From Candidatus Thorarchaeota archaeon (GTDB lineage Archaea > Asgardarchaeota > Thorarchaeia > Thorarchaeales > Thorarchaeaceae): a stretch of DNA of 6,272 nucleotides. Shown here in pieces: positions 1-6,272 of the stretch. Location of the stretch: positions 1-6,272 of the forward strand of contig JAEORN010000068.1 of the NCBI GenBank assembly GCA_016840825.1, written 5' to 3'. The translations under genes and the position numbers were made by a program. The first letter of the stretch is position 1. The number at the start of each line of letters is the position of its first letter. The notes beneath the pieces were generated by a model that was not told the origin of the DNA, ran no database searches, and was given only the letters and a program-made list of their open reading frames with translations.

Positions 1-3000
1 CCGTCAGAATCCAGCATGTTAGGGTCGGTATGGCTATTGAATATCTCATCATTATCAGCGATACCGTCATCGTCTGAATCTTCATCTAGTGGATTAGTAT
101 CATAGACGTTTACCTCATCCCCATCACTAAGATTGTCGAAGTCAGAATCTGGATTCTCTGGGTCTGTTCCTGCATCAATCTCTTCCTTGTCATTTAAACC
201 ATCATCATCAGTATCTGCATTTGTGGCATTTGTATGGTAGACTTGCCATTCTTCCCAATCTGATAGATTATCTCCATCAGTATCAGAATTATTGACGTCT
301 GTTCCGAGTTCGAGTTCTACCTTATCGTTGATCATGTCCCCATCAGTATCTGCAAGGTTAGGGTCACTTCCATACTGATTTACCTCATCGCCATCACTCA
401 GTAAATCTCCATCGCTGTCCCAATTTGTTGGATTGGTGAGTGTCACATAGGTTTCGTCATAGTCACTTATCCCATCTGAATCGGAATCTGTTCGTGCTGG
501 ATTAGTGTGATAGACCATATATTCATCATAGTCACTAATACCATCATCATCTGAATCCATGTCTAGTGGTGATGAACCAGCCAGTTTGACCTCTACGCCA
601 TCACTGAGCAAATCGCCATCTGTATCACTATTTGTCGCGTTACTGTGATAACCGTACACCTCAAGCCCGTTTGAGAGGCCATCTCCATCCATGTCAAGGT
701 CATAGTCAGATGTACCGTTCATGAAGGTGCTATATAGAGCTGGGTCTGTACCGAGGTCATTTACTTCAAATCCGTCATACAGTGCATCTCCATCAGAGTC
801 CATGAGCAATGGGTCAGTACTATACGTGATGACCTCCTCGTAGTCGTTTAACTGATCCCCATCGCTGTCTGCTTCTAATGGGTCAGTCGAGTATGTATTT
901 ACTTCGAGCCCATCTGATAGTCCGTCATTGTCCGAGTCTGCATCTCCAGGTGATGTATCATAGACATAGACTTCGTCGCCGTTCCCAATCCCATCACCAT
1001 CAGAGTCGACATCATAGTCCAAATCGAAACCGTTCGTCATGTCAGTGAGTGGGTCTGTCATGGTTACATTGAGCTCAATATAGTCATCTAAGAGGTCACC
1101 ATCCGTATCGTTTAGGAGTGGGTTTGTACCAAAGTCATGATACTCCTGTCCATCTAGAAGTAAATCGTCATCTGTATCTTCATCTAATGGATCTGAGCCA
1201 ACAGCAATCTCATCTGCATCATCTAGTTCGTCACCATCACTATCAGGATCATTAGGATCTGTTTCATCATTGTCTACAATTCCATTCCTGTTCAGGTCCT
1301 CGTACCCATCCAGGAGCCCGTCACCGTCAGTATCGTCGTTTGTGGCATTCCACCCTGCAGAAATCTCCAAGCCATCTCGAATGAGGTCATCATCACTGTC
1401 CCAGTCGGTGGGGTCTGTATCATAGGTGCGAAGTTCTTCGATGTTAGTAAGTCCATCATTATCCTTATCGTCTGCACCGTCAAGGATTCCATCATCATCC
1501 GAATCATTATCTAATGGATCGGTCTTGACGTCTAGGATCTCTTCGGAGTCTGTGAGTTGGTCATTATCTGAGTCTGCAACAAGTGGGTCGGTGTAGATGG
1601 CTGGATTGGAGTCACCGGTCAGTCCATCAGGGTCATTTATACCATCATAATTCATCTCTTCGAGATTGGTAAGATTATCATTATCGAGGTCTTCTTCCCA
1701 ATCATATATGCCATCATCATCTGTGTCATTATAGGTCGGATCAGTGTGGGTCGCGAATACTTCGAACCAGTTGGGGAGCTGGTCGCCATCCTCATCATCG
1801 TAATAGTCAGAGACCCCTACAACGCCTCCTGAGTCCCATAGAGTCGGGTCTGTATATGTGATGTACAATTCGATTCCATTGGATAGGTCATCCCCGTCCA
1901 AGTCCTCATCATAATCGGTTATCGAGTCATCATCACTATCTTTATCGTTAGGGTCAGTGCCAAGGATATTCACTTCGTCCCCGTCTTTGACCTGGTCATC
2001 ATCTGTATCAGGGTTTCTTGGGAGGGTGTTCGTTACAAATAGCTCGTCGTAATTTGTTAGTCCATCGAGGTCAGAGTCCTCTAAATCATCCGTTAATGCA
2101 TCACCATCGGTGTTGGGGTTTGTTGGGTCGGTCTTTGTGAGATAGATTTCCTGACCATTCGTGAGGTTGTCACCATCATCGTCCCAGTCGTAGTCTCCGA
2201 TAATGGTATCAAAGAAGTTGGCATCCAGAGCCACTGAGGCATTCCAGTATTTTATCTCGTCAGGGTCTCGAATACCATCTAGGTCAGAGTCTGCACGGGT
2301 CGCGTTTGTGCCGTAGGTATTGATTTCAAGTCCATCACTCAAGGTATCGCCGTCAGTATCTGACTTGGTCGCATTGGTGAAATACACAAGAACCTCGTCA
2401 TCATCAGTGACTCCGTCTAGGTCAGTATCTACAGAATTGGGGTCTGTCTTGTAGATATCAACCTCATCACCATCAAGCAGCGAATCCCCGTCGCTATCCG
2501 GATTAGTGGCGTTAGTCTGATAGGTCATGACTTCTCTGTAATCGTTGAGATTATCGTGATCCGTATCTGTGTCAGATACGTTAGTACCATAGGTATAGTA
2601 TTCATCGTAGTCATTGAGCTGATCACCATCAGTATCGGCTTTGGTGGGATTAGACTTGACGATAGTGACCTCTTCCCAGTCACTCAACTGGTCATTGTCG
2701 GTGTCTGGATTCGTGGGTGAGGTCTTCCAAATCTTGACCTCTTCCCCATCAAGTAAGAGGTCATCGTCAGAGTCCGGGTCATGCACATCAGAGCCTACCT
2801 GAATTTCCTTCCAGTTGGCTAGGTTGTCGCTGTCCTCGTCATCGTAATAGTCCGAAATGGAATCATTGTCTGTGTCCACATCATTTGGATCTGTAAGGGT
2901 AGTCCTGACTTCCTGCAGGTTCGTTAGGCCATCACCATCATTATCATCCTGTGCATCATTGATACCATTGTTGTTCGTATCAGAATCAAGCGGGTCAGTC

Positions 3001-4514
3001 AGAGTGATATTGTTCTCCTCATAGTCAGTGAGCGCATCGGAGTCTGTGGATTGGGCATTCGGGTCAGTTCCTAGATAGACTTCCTGCCAGTCTGTTAGCT
3101 TGTCATTATCACTGTCTGAATCATTTGGATCAGTACCATAGGTGACCACCTCTGCGAAGTCGGAGAGCTTGTCATTATCGCTGTCAGGATTATTCGGATC
3201 AGTGCCATACGTCAGCACTTCATCCCCATCTTTTAATCCATCATTATCCGTGTCCGAGTCATTGTAGAGCGTTCCCTCAATGTTATTCTCCCGAGCATCT
3301 GCGAGTCCGTCCTTATCGAAGTCCCGACCATATGCTGAGAGACCTCCTAAGGTATTCGTGATGAAGAACTCGTCAGTAGAGTCTGCATCAAGGTCTCCAA
3401 TGTCAAGAAGCCCACTCTGAGCATTAATCTGGGTCGAGGATACAAAGTATCCTGTTGCGTTATAGATGGTTGTCGGTCCGCCATTCTCTGCAACAAGGAG
3501 TTGAGGTTGTACAGTCCCGCCAATGTTTGCAGTCAACAGGTTGCTAATGGAGGCAGATAGTGTCTTGTTCCACTGAAGATCTGCAGTAGTATTATAGATA
3601 CGGACCTCAGCACCTGCGGTTCCCACGATGAGTTCGTTACCAGCAGCTGCCATCAGGTCCGCCACATCAATCGCAGTGACCGCATCACCCAGCGTAAGGG
3701 AGTGTATGGTGGTCCCATTGATATCAATTACTTTCAGATGTCCACCTGCATCACCATAGATGATGTCTGTAGTGCCAGTTCCCTTGATGTAGGCGAGTTT
3801 CACGATATTCAGAGAGTCAGTGGCCTGTGTGTTAAAGGCAACAGTGCCATCATGATCAAGGTAGGTCACATTGTTCAGTAGCGAACCTGCAAGGACCTCT
3901 TCATTGGCATCCACATCTGCATTTGCAGCATCCAGGTGTCTAATTGCAGAGTTACTGGTGAAGTTCCAGTTCTGAGTTCCTCCCAGTTCAAGGGCATACA
4001 CCCTGTTATTCTCAGTCCCAGCAATGAGTTCATCGAACCCGTCATTATCTACATCCGCTCCCACAACAGTGCGTACCCCACTGGGGAGAGCGATATCAGC
4101 AATGATACTTGTATCGACCTTGACAACGAGTACTCCGTCCGCTGTTCCAATCAACACCTCACTATCTGCAACTGCATCTGTATTCACCTCTGCGAGGGAA
4201 TATGCGGTTGTACTAAGGTTCAACTGAGATATCTTGAAACCGTTGTCATCAAAGAAGAACAACGTCCCATTGCTCGTGATTACAGCGACCTCCTGCTTAG
4301 CATCGAGGTCATAATTTCCAACAGCAATATCGACTATCTGCGACCCTGTCGTATTCTGCCAGACCAGTGCGGTTTCGAATGGAGCAATATCTGCGAGGGT
4401 CATAGGTCCTGTCTGTAGGTCAAACTGAGCATCAGTCGGTCCTGATACAGTTCCCTGTAGTCCAAAGACCACACAGACGAAGAGTGCTGCAAGTATGAGT
4501 TGGTACGATTTCAT
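1..4514 (-). CDS. Giant secreted beta-propeller and thrombospondin type 3-repeat protein (C-terminus outside window)
   Basis: The frame runs without a stop from ATG 4514 to the left edge; 1504 residues are visible and the end is missing. In order it has a Sec signal peptide (about 1-25), a short linker, eight FG-GAP/VCBS-like propeller repeats (about 59-397) and about 41 thrombospondin type 3-like units (398-1504). Those units are built on D-[ST]-D-x-D-x-[LI]-x-D-x-x-E followed by a TDP linker. In known families such Asp-rich loops bind calcium and stiffen an extended rod, and propellers bind ligands or sugars. I infer a calcium-dependent surface stalk or adhesin that presents its N-terminal head away from the cell. 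No catalytic site is visible. Cys occurs only in the signal peptide, so disulfides are absent. The overlap with the ATPase gene indicates a shared operon. An anchor (transmembrane helix, PGF-CTERM or similar) would be expected at the unseen end. A very large secreted enzyme with its catalytic domain beyond the edge is the alternative. Confidence 0.93.
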   Translation of the reverse strand, partial: MKSYQLILAALFVCVVFGLQGTVSGPTDAQFDLQTGPMTLADIAPFETALVWQNTTGSQIVDIAVGNYDLDAKQEVAVITSNGTLFFFDDNGFKISQLNLSTTAYSLAEVNTDAVADSEVLIGTADGVLVVKVDTSIIADIALPSGVRTVVGADVDNDGFDELIAGTENNRVYALELGGTQNWNFTSNSAIRHLDAANADVDANEEVLAGSLLNNVTYLDHDGTVAFNTQATDSLNIVKLAYIKGTGTTDIIYGDAGGHLKVIDINGTTIHSLTLGDAVTAIDVADLMAAAGNELIVGTAGAEVRIYNTTADLQWNKTLSASISNLLTANIGGTVQPQLLVAENGGPTTIYNATGYFVSSTQINAQSGLLDIGDLDADSTDEFFITNTLGGLSAYGRDFDKDGLADARENNIEGTLYNDSDTDNDGLKDGDEVLTYGTDPNNPDSDNDKLSDFAEVVTYGTDPNDSDSDNDKLTDWQEVYLGTDPNAQSTDSDALTDYEENNITLTDPLDSDTNNNGINDAQDDNDGDGLTNLQEVRTTLTDPNDVDTDNDSISDYYDDEDSDNLANWKEIQVGSDVHDPDSDDDLLLDGEEVKIWKTSPTNPDTDNDQLSDWEEVTIVKSNPTKADTDGDQLNDYDEYYTYGTNVSDTDTDHDNLNDYREVMTYQTNATNPDSDGDSLLDGDEVDIYKTDPNSVDTDLDGVTDDDEVLVYFTNATKSDTDGDTLSDGLEINTYGTNATRADSDLDGIRDPDEIKYWNASVALDANFFDTIIGDYDWDDDGDNLTNGQEIYLTKTDPTNPNTDGDALTDDLEDSDLDGLTNYDELFVTNTLPRNPDTDDDQVKDGDEVNILGTDPNDKDSDDDSITDYDEDLDGDDLSNGIELYITYTDPTLWDSGGVVGVSDYYDDEDGDQLPNWFEVFATHTDPTYNDTDDDGIYDWEEDLDNDNLTNLEEMNYDGINDPDGLTGDSNPAIYTDPLVADSDNDQLTDSEEILDVKTDPLDNDSDDDGILDGADDKDNDGLTNIEELRTYDTDPTDWDSDDDLIRDGLEISAGWNATNDDTDGDGLLDGYEDLNRNGIVDNDETDPNDPDSDGDELDDADEIAVGSDPLDEDTDDDLLLDGQEYHDFGTNPLLNDTDGDLLDDYIELNVTMTDPLTDMTNGFDLDYDVDSDGDGIGNGDEVYVYDTSPGDADSDNDGLSDGLEVNTYSTDPLEADSDGDQLNDYEEVITYSTDPLLMDSDGDALYDGFEVNDLGTDPALYSTFMNGTSDYDLDMDGDGLSNGLEVYGYHSNATNSDTDGDLLSDGVEVKLAGSSPLDMDSDDDGISDYDEYMVYHTNPARTDSDSDGISDYDETYVTLTNPTNWDSDGDLLSDGDEVNQYGSDPNLADTDGDMINDKVELELGTDVNNSDTDGDNLSDWEEWQVYHTNATNADTDDDGLNDKEEIDAGTDPENPDSDFDNLSDGDEVNVYDTNPLDEDSDDDGIADNDEIFNSHTDPNMLDSD
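12..1244 (-). repeat. Distal, mostly regular TSP3-like zone with two insertions
   Basis: Units 25-41 average about 24 residues and most are 22 or 23. Units 27 and 31 are longer, with the related inserts LTDMTNGFDLDYDV and YSTFMNGTSDYDL just before the next loop. They stand four units apart. The array is still continuing in phase when it meets the left edge, so the total number of units is unknown. Confidence 0.85.
1245..2291 (-). repeat. Irregular middle zone of doubled and interrupted TSP3-like units
   Basis: Units 15-24 cover 349 residues at uneven length. Several place a second Asp-rich loop directly after the first without the TDP linker: LTDDLEDSDLDGLTN (unit 16), ITDYDEDLDGDDLSN (18), IYDWEEDLDNDNLTN (20), ILDGADDKDNDGLTN (22). 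Unit 15 carries an extra segment around ALDANFFDTIIGDYDWDDDG. Unit 19 opens with the degenerate DSGGVVGVSDYY, which lacks the usual Asp spacing. Unit 20 has an extra Gly/Asn/Pro-rich loop (NYDGINDPDGLTGDSNP). The zone may be a bend, a joint or a binding site within the rod. Confidence 0.8.
2292..2774 (-). repeat. Seven consecutive TSP3-like units of exactly 23 residues
   Basis: Units 8-14 fill 483 bases, which is exactly seven times 69. Typical openings are DSDDDLLLDGEEV (unit 8), DTDGDQLNDYDEY (10), DSDGDSLLDGDEV (12) and DTDGDTLSDGLEI (14). There are no insertions or losses, so this is the most regular stretch and probably the straightest section of the rod. The linker is SP, NP, NV, NA, DP, NA and NA in turn, so only one of the seven units keeps the standard TDP. 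Confidence 0.88.
3324..4340 (-). other. FG-GAP/VCBS-like beta-propeller domain, eight repeats
   Basis: Eight repeats with a spacing of about 44 residues start near residues 59, 105, 148, 192, 236, 280, 325 and 368. Each has the form 'hydrophobic-x-x-[AG]-[DN]-x-D-x-D-x-x-[DE]-[EL]-[IV]-x-G-T-x-x-G-x-[IVL]-x-[IVL]-[YFD]'. Examples are VVGADVDNDGFDELIAGT (150-167) and AEVNTDAVADSEVLIGTADG (108-127). Repeat 3 has a full DxDxDG calcium loop (154-159). Repeats 1, 4 and 8 keep partial loops, and repeats 5 to 7 have lost the acidic residues, so calcium binding is uneven along the ring. The count fits one seven- or eight-bladed propeller, the fold of integrin alpha heads and many microbial surface proteins. 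Confidence 0.85.
4440..4514 (-). other. Sec-type signal peptide of the giant protein
   Basis: The start is MKSYQLILAALFVCVVFGL: one Lys, then a hydrophobic core of about 15 residues (4-19). The polar stretch QGTVSGPTDAQ follows. Cleavage is plausible after VSG (residue 25) or TDA (29). Cys14 sits within the hydrophobic core rather than in a clear lipobox, so a lipoprotein is less likely. The segment directs the protein outside the cell. Confidence 0.85.
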
Positions 4515-4530
4515 CACTCACTTTCTCCTC
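4512..4530 (-). promoter_or_regulatory. Shine-Dalgarno site and overlapping stop/start at the ABC ATPase-giant protein junction
   Basis: GAGGAG lies at 4530-4525 on the minus strand, inside the last codons of the ATPase gene. It is followed by AAAGTGAGTGATG. The ATPase stop TGA (4516-4514) shares one base with the ATG at 4514-4512. A GTG at 4517-4515 is in frame with that ATG; it would give the common GTGA four-base overlap and a more usual seven-base spacing, against ten for the ATG. The two starts differ by one residue. Either way, the giant protein's translation should be coupled to that of the ATPase. Confidence 0.8.
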
Positions 4531-5491
4531 TTGGTTTCTTTTTCCAAGGTTTCACCTGAAAGTAATCGAAGAAGTCTGCTTCGACGAGGCGAACTTCCTC
4601 AAAAGGCAGGTTGTTCGCATTCAACTCTTTGATTATCGGAAGGACATTATCCATGGGATTATCTATGAAGAGCTTCAATGCATTTCGACCTGCTTTAGCA
4701 TAATATTTCACACCCGGTAACGTAGTCACTCTATCTACCAACCAAGATGATAGGTTAGGCAACAAGACTTGTAGTGCCTCTCCCTTTCCAGGGAGGGTTG
4801 TGATGAGCTCTTGGGGTGTTCCAAATTGACTCACTAGTCCATCTTCTAGAAGGGTAACTCGTGTACAATAGTCTACAATCTCAAGATCATGGCTGATGAT
4901 TACCATCGTTGTGCCCAGCTCGAAATTCAGCATCTTGAGATAGTTTAGGGTCTCGTGACGAAGGTGAGCGTCTAGACCTGTGGTGGGTTCATCTAACAGC
5001 AACACAGGAGGGTCATGGATCATTCCAAGACAGATAGAGACCCGCTTTCTCTCTCCACCAGAGAGCTTGGAACTGGTCTTGGTCATGAGGTCCTCATCAA
5101 ATCCCAGAATTTCTAGGATGTTGCGAGCACGTTTCTCAATCTCCTTTGGTTTGAGTCCATAACAGCGTCCAAAGAACTGAGCATTCTCCAGCGCACTAAA
5201 GTCCCAATACATACTGAGATGTTCTATCTGCGGAACATATCCAACAAGGAGTGATATCAGATACCGTTTCTTGGTGACATCATAACCACCAACATATGCT
5301 TGGCCATCAGTTGGATCAATCTGACCGGTGAGTACTCTGAGGACCGTTGTTTTTCCTGCACCTGAGGCTCCTATGATACCGAGGAATTCCTTTTTGTTGG
5401 CATAGAAAGACACTCCTTTCAATGCATAGAAGTCACCAAAGGCAACCTTGAGGTCCTGAATGTCAATCTCTCGTTCCGGACGCGTGGACAT
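4514..5491 (-). CDS. ABC transporter ATP-binding protein, DrrA/NatA/GldA-type exporter family
   Basis: This complete 325-residue nucleotide-binding subunit should hydrolyse ATP on the cytoplasmic face to power a membrane permease. All core motifs are intact: Walker A GASGAGKTT (41-49), Q-loop Gln88, signature LSGGERKR (143-150), Walker B LLLDE (164-168) with Glu168 as catalytic base, D-loop GLD (172-174) and switch His201 in ISHD. About 95 residues follow the ATPase core. The stretch LPGVKYYAKAGRNALKLFI and the ending NNLPFEEVRLVEADFFDYF match the pattern of the C-terminal domain of drug, sodium and gliding-type exporter ATPases (DrrA, NatA, GldA), in which 'psLEDvF' is usual. The sequence after that ends in a basic tail, KPWKKKP. 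The ATG is fixed by a strong Shine-Dalgarno site. No permease is encoded in the window, so the substrate cannot be named; the single-helix protein upstream may be a partner. The family is certain; the subfamily is likely. Confidence 0.95.
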   Translation of the reverse strand: MSTRPEREIDIQDLKVAFGDFYALKGVSFYANKKEFLGIIGASGAGKTTVLRVLTGQIDPTDGQAYVGGYDVTKKRYLISLLVGYVPQIEHLSMYWDFSALENAQFFGRCYGLKPKEIEKRARNILEILGFDEDLMTKTSSKLSGGERKRVSICLGMIHDPPVLLLDEPTTGLDAHLRHETLNYLKMLNFELGTTMVIISHDLEIVDYCTRVTLLEDGLVSQFGTPQELITTLPGKGEALQVLLPNLSSWLVDRVTTLPGVKYYAKAGRNALKLFIDNPMDNVLPIIKELNANNLPFEEVRLVEADFFDYFQVKPWKKKPRGESE

Positions 5492-5492
5492 T

Positions 5493-6272
5493 TCAGATAC
5501 CTCCTACTCGGTCACTAACACTCTCGAATTCTTTTCGAGCCCGATCTAAGTCCGCAAGGAAACCTCTGAGTGCCTCAACCTTCTGAATACGGTCTATATC
5601 TTCACGATTGATGAGTTCATTCATCATTGATATTGTCGCGAGGTACATGTTGAGAGTATTATCAATGTCTTGAGATAGTATTGTATCAATTTCAGGTATC
5701 CTGTATCTACGTCTTCTCTTAGACCTGTTCCAATAGAGAAGTGCCATCAGACTACCAAATATTCCAATCGATGTGACATATGCCACCTGAACCAATGTTA
5801 AGAGCGGCCCAGGACCATTTGTGGTATTCGTAGTATCTGGCTTATAGAGTTCGAATGTGATACTTGCATAGGTGCCCGCATATTCCTCCCTGAGGATGAT
5901 GAAGATTCCACTCACAACTCCCTCATCTTCCCAATATGCTGGTACAAACTGTGAAGAGTATAGGCCATTCCCAACAAATCCTGCGATGAAAAATGAGAGG
6001 CTCCCGTTTGGTAATTCAAAAGCAATAGCTACAAAGAGATCATTCACAGGGTTTCCATAATAATCACTGACATCCAGATTCAGGTAGACACTTTTTCCTA
6101 CTTCATACCTTGTAGTGTTCTCAGCAAGGCTTGTGACAGTTGTTAATGTATTGAGAAGTAAGTATTCCACAAGATTATCGAGTACTATTGAATTATTGCA
6201 CTTTACCAAGTTCTTATTCATAAAGACACGTGAAGATCCAAATAGTACAATTTCTGGTGCACTATCATCCAC
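5493..6272 (-). CDS. C-terminal part of a single-pass membrane protein with an extracellular beta-rich domain; GldG/IFT52-like N-terminal remnant (5' end outside window)
   Basis: The frame is open to the right edge, so the true start lies outside; 259 residues are visible. Residues 7-40 (EIVLFGSSRVF, then NSIVLDNLVEYLL) resemble the last strand and helix of GldG/IFT52-like or DUF4350-like domains, where a 'G-S/D-S' turn is followed by an 'N..LV.YLL' helix; this is a weak, by-eye match. Residues about 55-143 are beta-rich and look like an Ig- or macroglobulin-like extracellular domain (VYLNLDVSDYYGNPV, then GLYSSQFVPA). A Thr/Asn/Gly/Pro linker (146-156) leads to one membrane helix (about 157-181), then the basic stretch RSKRRRRYR, which predicts an outside N-terminus and a cytoplasmic C-terminus. 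Residues 192-255 are charged and helical, possibly coiled-coil. The stop TGA lies one base before the ABC ATPase start, so the two are probably co-translated and may form one complex. The exact function is unknown. Membrane topology is well supported; the GldG/IFT52 link is tentative. Confidence 0.8.
   Translation of the reverse strand: MDDSAPEIVLFGSSRVFMNKNLVKCNNSIVLDNLVEYLLLNTLTTVTSLAENTTRYEVGKSVYLNLDVSDYYGNPVNDLFVAIAFELPNGSLSFFIAGFVGNGLYSSQFVPAYWEDEGVVSGIFIILREEYAGTYASITFELYKPDTTNTTNGPGPLLTLVQVAYVTSIGIFGSLMALLYWNRSKRRRRYRIPEIDTILSQDIDNTLNMYLATISMMNELINREDIDRIQKVEALRGFLADLDRARKEFESVSDRVGGI
5499..5505 (-). promoter_or_regulatory. Shine-Dalgarno site of the ABC ATPase gene, inside the upstream coding sequence
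   Basis: The minus strand reads AGGAGGT here, followed by seven bases and then ATG at 5491-5489. The site lies within the last codons of the upstream gene (Val-Gly-Gly-Ile), whose stop TGA occupies 5495-5493. Only base 5492 separates the stop from the ATG. This strong site fixes the ATPase start and points to coupled translation of the two genes. Confidence 0.85.
5730..5804 (-). other. Transmembrane helix with basic stop-transfer sequence
   Basis: Residues about 157-181 of the partial upstream protein form a hydrophobic stretch (LLTLVQVAYVTS, then GIFGSLMALLYW), followed at once by NRSKRRRRYR. The positive-inside rule places the small C-terminal helical domain in the cytoplasm, on the same side as the ABC ATPase encoded next, and the beta-rich domain outside. 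Confidence 0.85.

Follow-up and report, generated by a model that had tools for sequence, protein, structure and literature searches.

We analyzed a 6,272-nucleotide stretch of DNA from Candidatus Thorarchaeota archaeon (contig JAEORN010000068.1, positions 1 to 6,272; hereafter the window), which holds part of a five-gene operon ending in a giant surface protein with calcium-box repeats of the TSP3 type. Inspection of open reading frames (ORFs) places three genes in the window, all on the minus strand, namely the C-terminal part of a subtilase-like protein with a GIFT domain (S8-GIFT), an ATP-binding cassette (ABC) ATPase (ATPase 2), and the giant. The window is cut at both ends, leaving outside it the upstream permease as well as the membrane segment and cytosolic domain of the giant. 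In relatives, the order of genes is ABC-2 permease, ATPase 1 (~560 residues), S8-GIFT (~1450 residues), ATPase 2, and giant. A sequence-only reading of the window had the surface protein standing in place of a permease. That premise arose because the window edge hid the permease, a PF12698 (ABC-2) protein, which is encoded three genes upstream of the window ATPase in the same operon, ahead of a second ATPase (ATPase 1) and the S8-GIFT gene.

The ATPase 2/giant junction is conserved

A giant-type ORF follows ATPase 2 in all 19 junctions that could be read (the window and 18 relatives: L003, L004, L007, L008, L009, L014, L052-L059, L113, L115, L117, and L119), in every case overlapping the ATPase stop and opening with a hydrophobic N-terminus. 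The overlap is a single base in the window, where TGA and ATG meet, four bases (ATGA or GTGA) in 17 relatives, and TTGA in L119. Both the overlap and the Shine-Dalgarno-like site inside the ATPase gene had been described from the window alone and are borne out here; such a site was matched in 11 of the 12 junctions inspected, L008 having none. An alternative GTG start of the giant lies at 4517, and the ATG is the better candidate given that most relatives start with MK at the equivalent position. Calcium repeats can be seen past 14 of the 19 junctions; in L003, L004, L008, L117, and L119 the readable sequence stops short of the stalk or right at it, and giant-likeness in the two shortest, L008 and L119, was judged by eye. 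The count covers readable DNA, leaving aside eight of the 14 close loci described below and further genomes that are unreadable right after ATPase 2 (over ~6.4-6.9 kb in those eight loci; 4.3 kb in L010, up to the contig end), together with a few others in which the contig ends first. Recurrence in several genomes had been set as a check on the pairing. It extends well beyond one genome, and with 19/19 readable junctions leading from the same ATPase into a giant-type ORF, the association is more than chance.

The giant is a predicted membrane-anchored stalk with an ear-like tail

The window encodes the first two thirds of the giant, 1504 residues from the ATG before the frame runs off the end, so that the earlier figure of more than 1500 residues holds as a lower bound. 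The visible part matches Pfam TSP3_bac over 21 stretches (120.7 bits against a cut-off of 25; E 2e-35), which places it in that family. Its N-terminal hydrophobic segment spans residues 6-24 (Kyte-Doolittle 2.23); signal peptides and membrane segments were called throughout from hydropathy rather than with a dedicated predictor. Seven complete giants (L009, L014, L052, L053, L057, L058, and L059) measure 2233-2275 residues from the overlapping start, or 2244-2277 when three copies are taken from an earlier in-frame start; an eighth copy (G209) was excluded for an in-frame TAG near its end. Each starts with a hydrophobic leader and a beta-propeller, continues with 71-76 calcium boxes (modal spacing 23 residues), and ends in one membrane segment and a cytosolic domain. 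The membrane segment (hydropathy 2.00-2.52) has basic residues behind it in all seven copies. The sequence thus predicts a single-pass, membrane-anchored, mostly extracellular protein with ~120 residues inside the cell, in an orientation that we infer. The earlier description of the giant as secreted stands as regards its signal-like segment; a simply secreted protein it is not, since the complete relatives carry a C-terminal membrane segment.

These features bear on what the ABC complex could do for the giant. The sequence-only reading judged the complex an unlikely exporter because the giant has a signal-like segment of its own, and we concur, whereas the anchoring role it suggested is not needed because the giant also brings its own membrane segment. 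Operon linkage would fit export in the manner of type 1 secretion, and bacterial ABC systems do export giant calcium-repeat adhesins. Those adhesins lack an N-terminal Sec-type signal, however, and the hydrophobic N-terminus of the giant sets it apart from them. Together with the C-terminal membrane segment and basic residues in 7/7 complete giants, the ABC-2 type of the permease, and the occurrence of the ABC core without an adjacent giant (see below), this makes such export highly improbable.

The stalk measures 1692-1727 residues in all seven complete giants. Its identity is 62-67% in register against 27-32% when shifted by one repeat (six pairs), and the repeats are therefore position-by-position orthologues whose number has hardly changed. 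The stalk is not fully frozen, as aligning the window and L014 proteins leaves 43 gap positions over 1525 aligned columns. Averaged over 21 pairs, pairwise identity reaches 75% in the tail, 67% in the stalk, and 48% in the propeller; measured in windows of 100 residues, identity at the beginning of the stalk (0.83) approaches that of the tail (0.85).

The C-terminal domain (~120 residues, one immunoglobulin (Ig) domain) has a predicted fold of the ear type, resembling the ears of COPI and adaptins. No adaptin/COP appendage family is among the seven Pfam matches, up to E 0.1, of the complete L014 giant. Ig-like folds are common, and many structure matches lie within 2 Z units of one another, as would be expected if the tail were simply a generic Ig plug on the cytosolic side of a free-standing adhesin that has no partner there. 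We regard this as improbable, for the mean identity of the tail exceeds that of the head and the block FELQPGAEGELVG is invariant in seven giant sequences. A protein search with the tail gave zero matches below 1e-5 among 355 candidates and is uninformative on its spread. Proteins of ~800 residues with cysteine-rich N-termini in L105-L108 and L111 contain a domain weakly similar to the tail. The in-frame TAG in the G209 giant gene (L055/L100) may reflect a sequencing error, a pseudogene, or something else.

S8-GIFT carries a degenerate subtilase site

The 1456-residue L004 relative of the window S8-GIFT matches Peptidase_S8 at 120.4 bits (cut-off 21.8), consistent with a subtilase fold, and also matches IFT52_GIFT. 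The protein combines a degenerate subtilase domain and an IFT52-type GIFT domain with a hydrophobic leader and a membrane segment. A second hydrophobic stretch in the window copy (residues 79-97, hydropathy 1.61) corresponds to beta strands in the L004 model, a 1011-residue prediction folded in one piece and of middling quality (pLDDT 72, pTM 0.47).

Across 53 distinct S8-GIFT copies the oxyanion Asn is replaced by Asp without exception, and the nucleophilic Ser is kept in five, with Ala, Thr, Gly, Leu, or Phe in the other 48. The catalytic His is kept in 46 (lost in seven) and the Asp in 52 (lost in one). Control S8 proteins keep both Asn and Ser in 17/17. S8-GIFT thus lacks the Asp, His, Ser triad plus oxyanion Asn of an active enzyme; Thr at the nucleophile position (13/53 copies) may, from sequence, still serve as a working nucleophile. 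In view of these residues, proteolytic processing by S8-GIFT is no longer the leading reading; processing of the surface protein, suggested earlier for the ABC complex, is disfavored for S8-GIFT because the active site is degenerate. That S8-GIFT nonetheless acts as a protease, cleaving or freeing the stalk under control of the ABC part, would accord with the subtilase fold, with the retained residues (Ser 5/53, His 46/53, Asp 52/53), and with the name 'S8 family serine peptidase' that NCBI gives to many relatives; Asn-to-Asp replacement in 53/53 copies and loss of the nucleophile in 48/53, set against the intact controls, leave it with little likelihood. The database labels in this family probably do not denote proteases.

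In-frame stops occur in S8-GIFT genes (TAG in G006, L006/L024; TAA in G013) and may be errors, pseudogenes, or something else. Runs of 100 N at L113:12022-12121 and L115:16210-16309, one within the giant gene and the other at the end of an S8-GIFT frame, have the look of normal gaps in the assembly and not of masked sequence. Genomes with S8-GIFT also hold separate S8 proteins of ~900-980 residues with an intact active site (L078:6716-9661, L074:8588-11482, L079:6653-9352, L085:7683-10574, and similar). Their make-up recalls eukaryotic Site-1 protease; DUF4350/GIFT-type matches rise above cut-off only in L078 and L085, and L085 has a weak MBTPS1_4th match.

The ABC ATPases

Walker A, signature, Walker B, and H-loop of ATPase 2 are invariant across 11 aligned sequences, and the Walker B motif of ATPase 1 reads LLMDEP in all four Thorarchaeal copies. 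The best NCBIfam matches of the ATPases include drrA and RbbA, all below their cut-offs. The C-terminus of ATPase 2 contains FFDYF, a sequence compatible with FxDxF, the motif that the alpha-adaptin appendage binds according to the title of PDB 9pue. Docking of ATPase 2 on the giant tail through this motif was considered and rejected: FxDxF also occurs there in 7/8 ATPase 2 proteins of divergent loci that lack a neighboring giant, and is therefore not specific to giant-bearing loci. We take this position to be the usual end of DrrA-type ATPases.

Table 1. Features of the 6,272-nucleotide window.
Feature	Position	Strand	Evidence
S8-GIFT, C-terminal 259 residues, 5' end cut by window edge	5493..6272	-	61% identity over the overlap with the 1456-residue L004 relative
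End of IFT52-type GIFT domain, APEIVLFGSSRVFMNKNLVKCNNSIVLDNLVEYLLLNTL	6146..6260	-	Matching block of family profile aligns to IFT52 structure 5fms
Probable transmembrane segment of S8-GIFT	5739..5795	-	Hydropathy 1.76, residues 160-178
Basic stretch and helical tail after S8-GIFT transmembrane segment	about 5496-5738	-	
ABC ATPase 2, 325 residues	4514..5491	-	PF00005 E 1.3e-26; Walker A, signature, Walker B, H-loop intact
GAGGAG, Shine-Dalgarno-like, for giant, within ATPase gene	4525..4530	-	10 bases upstream of giant ATG
GTGATG, overlap of ATPase stop and giant start	4512..4517	-	TGA 4516-4514, ATG 4514-4512
Giant TSP3 surface protein, N-terminal 1504 residues, 3' end beyond window	1..4514	-	57% identity to complete 2264-residue L014 protein (shared part)
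N-terminal signal-like hydrophobic segment of giant	4443..4514	-	Hydropathy; similar starts in relatives
Beta-propeller head of giant, borders approximate	3330..4382	-	Pfam Beta-prop_CGLA 28.4 bits against cut-off 26.8; also in relatives
Calcium-box (TSP3) stalk with 48 boxes in view; modal spacing 23 residues	3..3323	-	

The ABC/S8-GIFT core extends beyond the giant

Scanning genome contigs with the ATPase gave 21 loci, from which seven distant ABC ATPases (L015-L021, 23-33% identity) were dropped. The remaining 14 share 75-89% identity with the window ATPase; 11 are labelled Thorarchaeota, two 'archaeon', and one (L011) Lokiarchaeota. ATPase 2 of L011 is 77% identical to that of the window despite its label, and protein P0087 is likewise labelled. 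As the L011 operon is Thor-like, we suspect the label to be wrong; it is probably a matter of labelling or binning, the sequence being mislabelled, misbinned, or transferred.

S8-GIFT matches at E up to 1e-100 occur in 63 of 227 genomes of the phylum to which Thorarchaeotal genome G001 belongs. Divergent copies, with 25-34% identity to L004, adjoin a permease and ATPases in several genomes. A TSP3 giant follows ATPase 2 in none of the eight divergent loci with a visible flank (L061, L063, L064, L065, L066, L069, L087, and L088), the flank seen in L069 being 387 bases only; L070, whose flank is not visible, was excluded from the eight. Strong matches to the giant tail are absent from all genomes of divergent loci searched, and the fetched DNA of L067, L068, L071, L089, and L090 shows no similar ABC gene near S8-GIFT. 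The ABC/S8-GIFT core appears older or wider than the giant, which, because no giant lies beside the core in divergent Asgard genomes (8/8 with a visible flank), looks like a Thorarchaeal addition.

This distribution, in which the core can occur without a giant beside it, also suits an account based on shared expression only. In this account the core exports an envelope lipid or glycan and the giant, a structural surface protein in its own right, comes at the end of the operon for reasons of dosage or as a carrier of that glycan. Lipids, glycans, or drugs are frequent cargo of ABC-2 permeases paired with DrrA-like ATPases; the sub-cut-off drrA and RbbA matches would agree with such a role, as would the 28-37 N-glycosylation sequons carried by each giant. 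No glycosyltransferase family was found among the Pfam-scanned operon proteins, however, the neighboring genes being mostly unscanned, and the fixed order and overlap at 19/19 junctions, together with the conserved cytosolic tail, suggest more than dosage. We hold this account to be possible but somewhat doubtful.

In many loci, a divergently transcribed gene precedes the permease; its ~780-residue product has one hydrophobic segment and zero Pfam matches (L004:222-2573 and equivalents). A tetratricopeptide repeat (TPR) gene lies downstream of the operon in several loci, sometimes non-adjacent. Just 3' of the divergent ATPase 2 genes, on the same strand, L061:2806-3339 and L063:7081-7605 encode a small GTPase-like protein (P-loop GDPAVGKTSLI, by eye). 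Near divergent S8-GIFT genes (L064, L066, L067, L068, L090, and partly L089), a protein of ~1030-1090 residues recurs, except in L089 (contig end), along with longin-like (124-141 residues) and TPR-like (274-309 residues) proteins assigned by eye. An Rfam scan of the window at gathering cut-offs and a plasmid tblastn search with the ATPase (E limit 1e-40) each gave zero matches.

A proposed surface assembly

On the observed anatomy and conservation, we tentatively favor a model in which the five-gene Thorarchaeal operon builds one cell-surface assembly whose ABC/pseudoprotease module holds, gates, or senses the stalk. The ABC-2 core and its pseudoprotease/GIFT partner would be an older Asgard membrane machine, distinct from any exporter of the giant, and in Thorarchaeia the giant would have become its dedicated surface partner. 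Exported through Sec, the giant would remain anchored in the membrane, its tail facing the cytosol. ATP-driven movement, passed on through S8-GIFT, could then hold, gate, or sense the stalk as an adhesin or tether, and the ear-like tail may recruit a cytosolic partner.

A bolder reading, which we think unlikely, is that this assembly unites an IFT52-type GIFT domain, a Site-1-protease-like subtilase architecture, and a COPI/adaptin-ear-like domain, modules found later in eukaryotic membrane traffic and cilia, so that a long calcium-dependent stalk of nearly fixed length, tied across the membrane to a cytosolic adaptor machinery and moved or gated by a pair of ABC ATPases, would constitute an Asgard tether or attachment machine.

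The earlier suggestion of an undescribed envelope system is plausible, and its novelty agrees with the literature, which we covered largely in open-access form, with subscription journals mostly outside that coverage; there, no account was found for Thorarchaeota or Asgard archaea of the operon, a TSP3 surface giant, a site-1 protease, or an IFT52 link. Passages of PMC6393860 likewise contain no mention of the operon. This is apparently a conserved cell-surface assembly unstudied so far. Thorarchaeota are relatives of the ancestors of complex cells, and the Asgard surface and its tie to eukaryote-like cytosolic proteins are poorly known. The five proteins of the operon, which are conserved in the Thorarchaeia examined, form a defined set linking a giant extracellular stalk to a cytosolic ear-like domain and to an ABC/GIFT machine.

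Comparison with known systems

Long runs of TSP3-type calcium boxes are common to the giant and to CglD and MtsD, the TSP3 proteins of NCBIfam. The similarity is carried by the repeats, the scores falling below the CglD cut-off (NF033765; 218.2 for the window giant and 306.7 for L014 against 400) and the MtsD cut-off (34 against 800). The tail is alike in predicted fold to the COPI gamma-appendage and the gamma-adaptin ear, with sequence identity of 10-14% in the ear rows compared; unlike those ears, it sits on a giant surface stalk. Archaeal appendage-like IG domains with a link to ESCRT have been described, among them one that a transmembrane linker connects to a GOLD domain (PMC10936438), and adaptor-complex domains, unfused to each other, are reported in Asgard archaea (PMC10307638).

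S8-GIFT differs from Site-1 protease (MBTPS1) in its degenerate active site, its linkage to ABC genes, and an additional domain similar to the beta-sandwich found in glucodextranase and in phosphorylase-type enzymes; the domain arrangement also differs, as the root-mean-square deviation is large. Subtilase-family pseudoproteases used in sensing, CspC and CspA of Clostridioides, are described in PMC12880746. The CspC and CspBA models match S8-GIFT weakly (25.3 against 675 and 30.1 against 1250), a similarity that reflects the shared subtilase fold, and the Clostridioides proteins differ in being soluble spore proteins without an ABC partner.

The working system that comes closest by analogy is bacterial gliding, with GldA-GldF-GldG and SprB of Flavobacterium, in which an ABC system with a GIFT-type membrane partner and a giant surface adhesin occur in the same cells. 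GldG is a GIFT protein, and S8-GIFT is likewise a GIFT-type auxiliary membrane protein. According to passages of two reports, GldA, GldF, and GldG are required for gliding in cells that move by a giant adhesin (PMC9127263, PMC5682007). The Thorarchaeal ATPases fall below the NCBIfam GldA cut-off of 402.6 bits (131.7 for ATPase 2 and 103.3 for ATPase 1), and the comparison is therefore one of analogy, with no claim of membership; the GldF and GldG models do not appear in the NCBIfam match lists of the operon proteins. Unlike GldAFG, the Thorarchaeal system is archaeal and has two ATPases, a fused pseudo-subtilase, and a membrane-anchored giant encoded in the same operon. It also provides a way into the function of GIFT-type ABC systems that is relevant for bacterial gliding as well.

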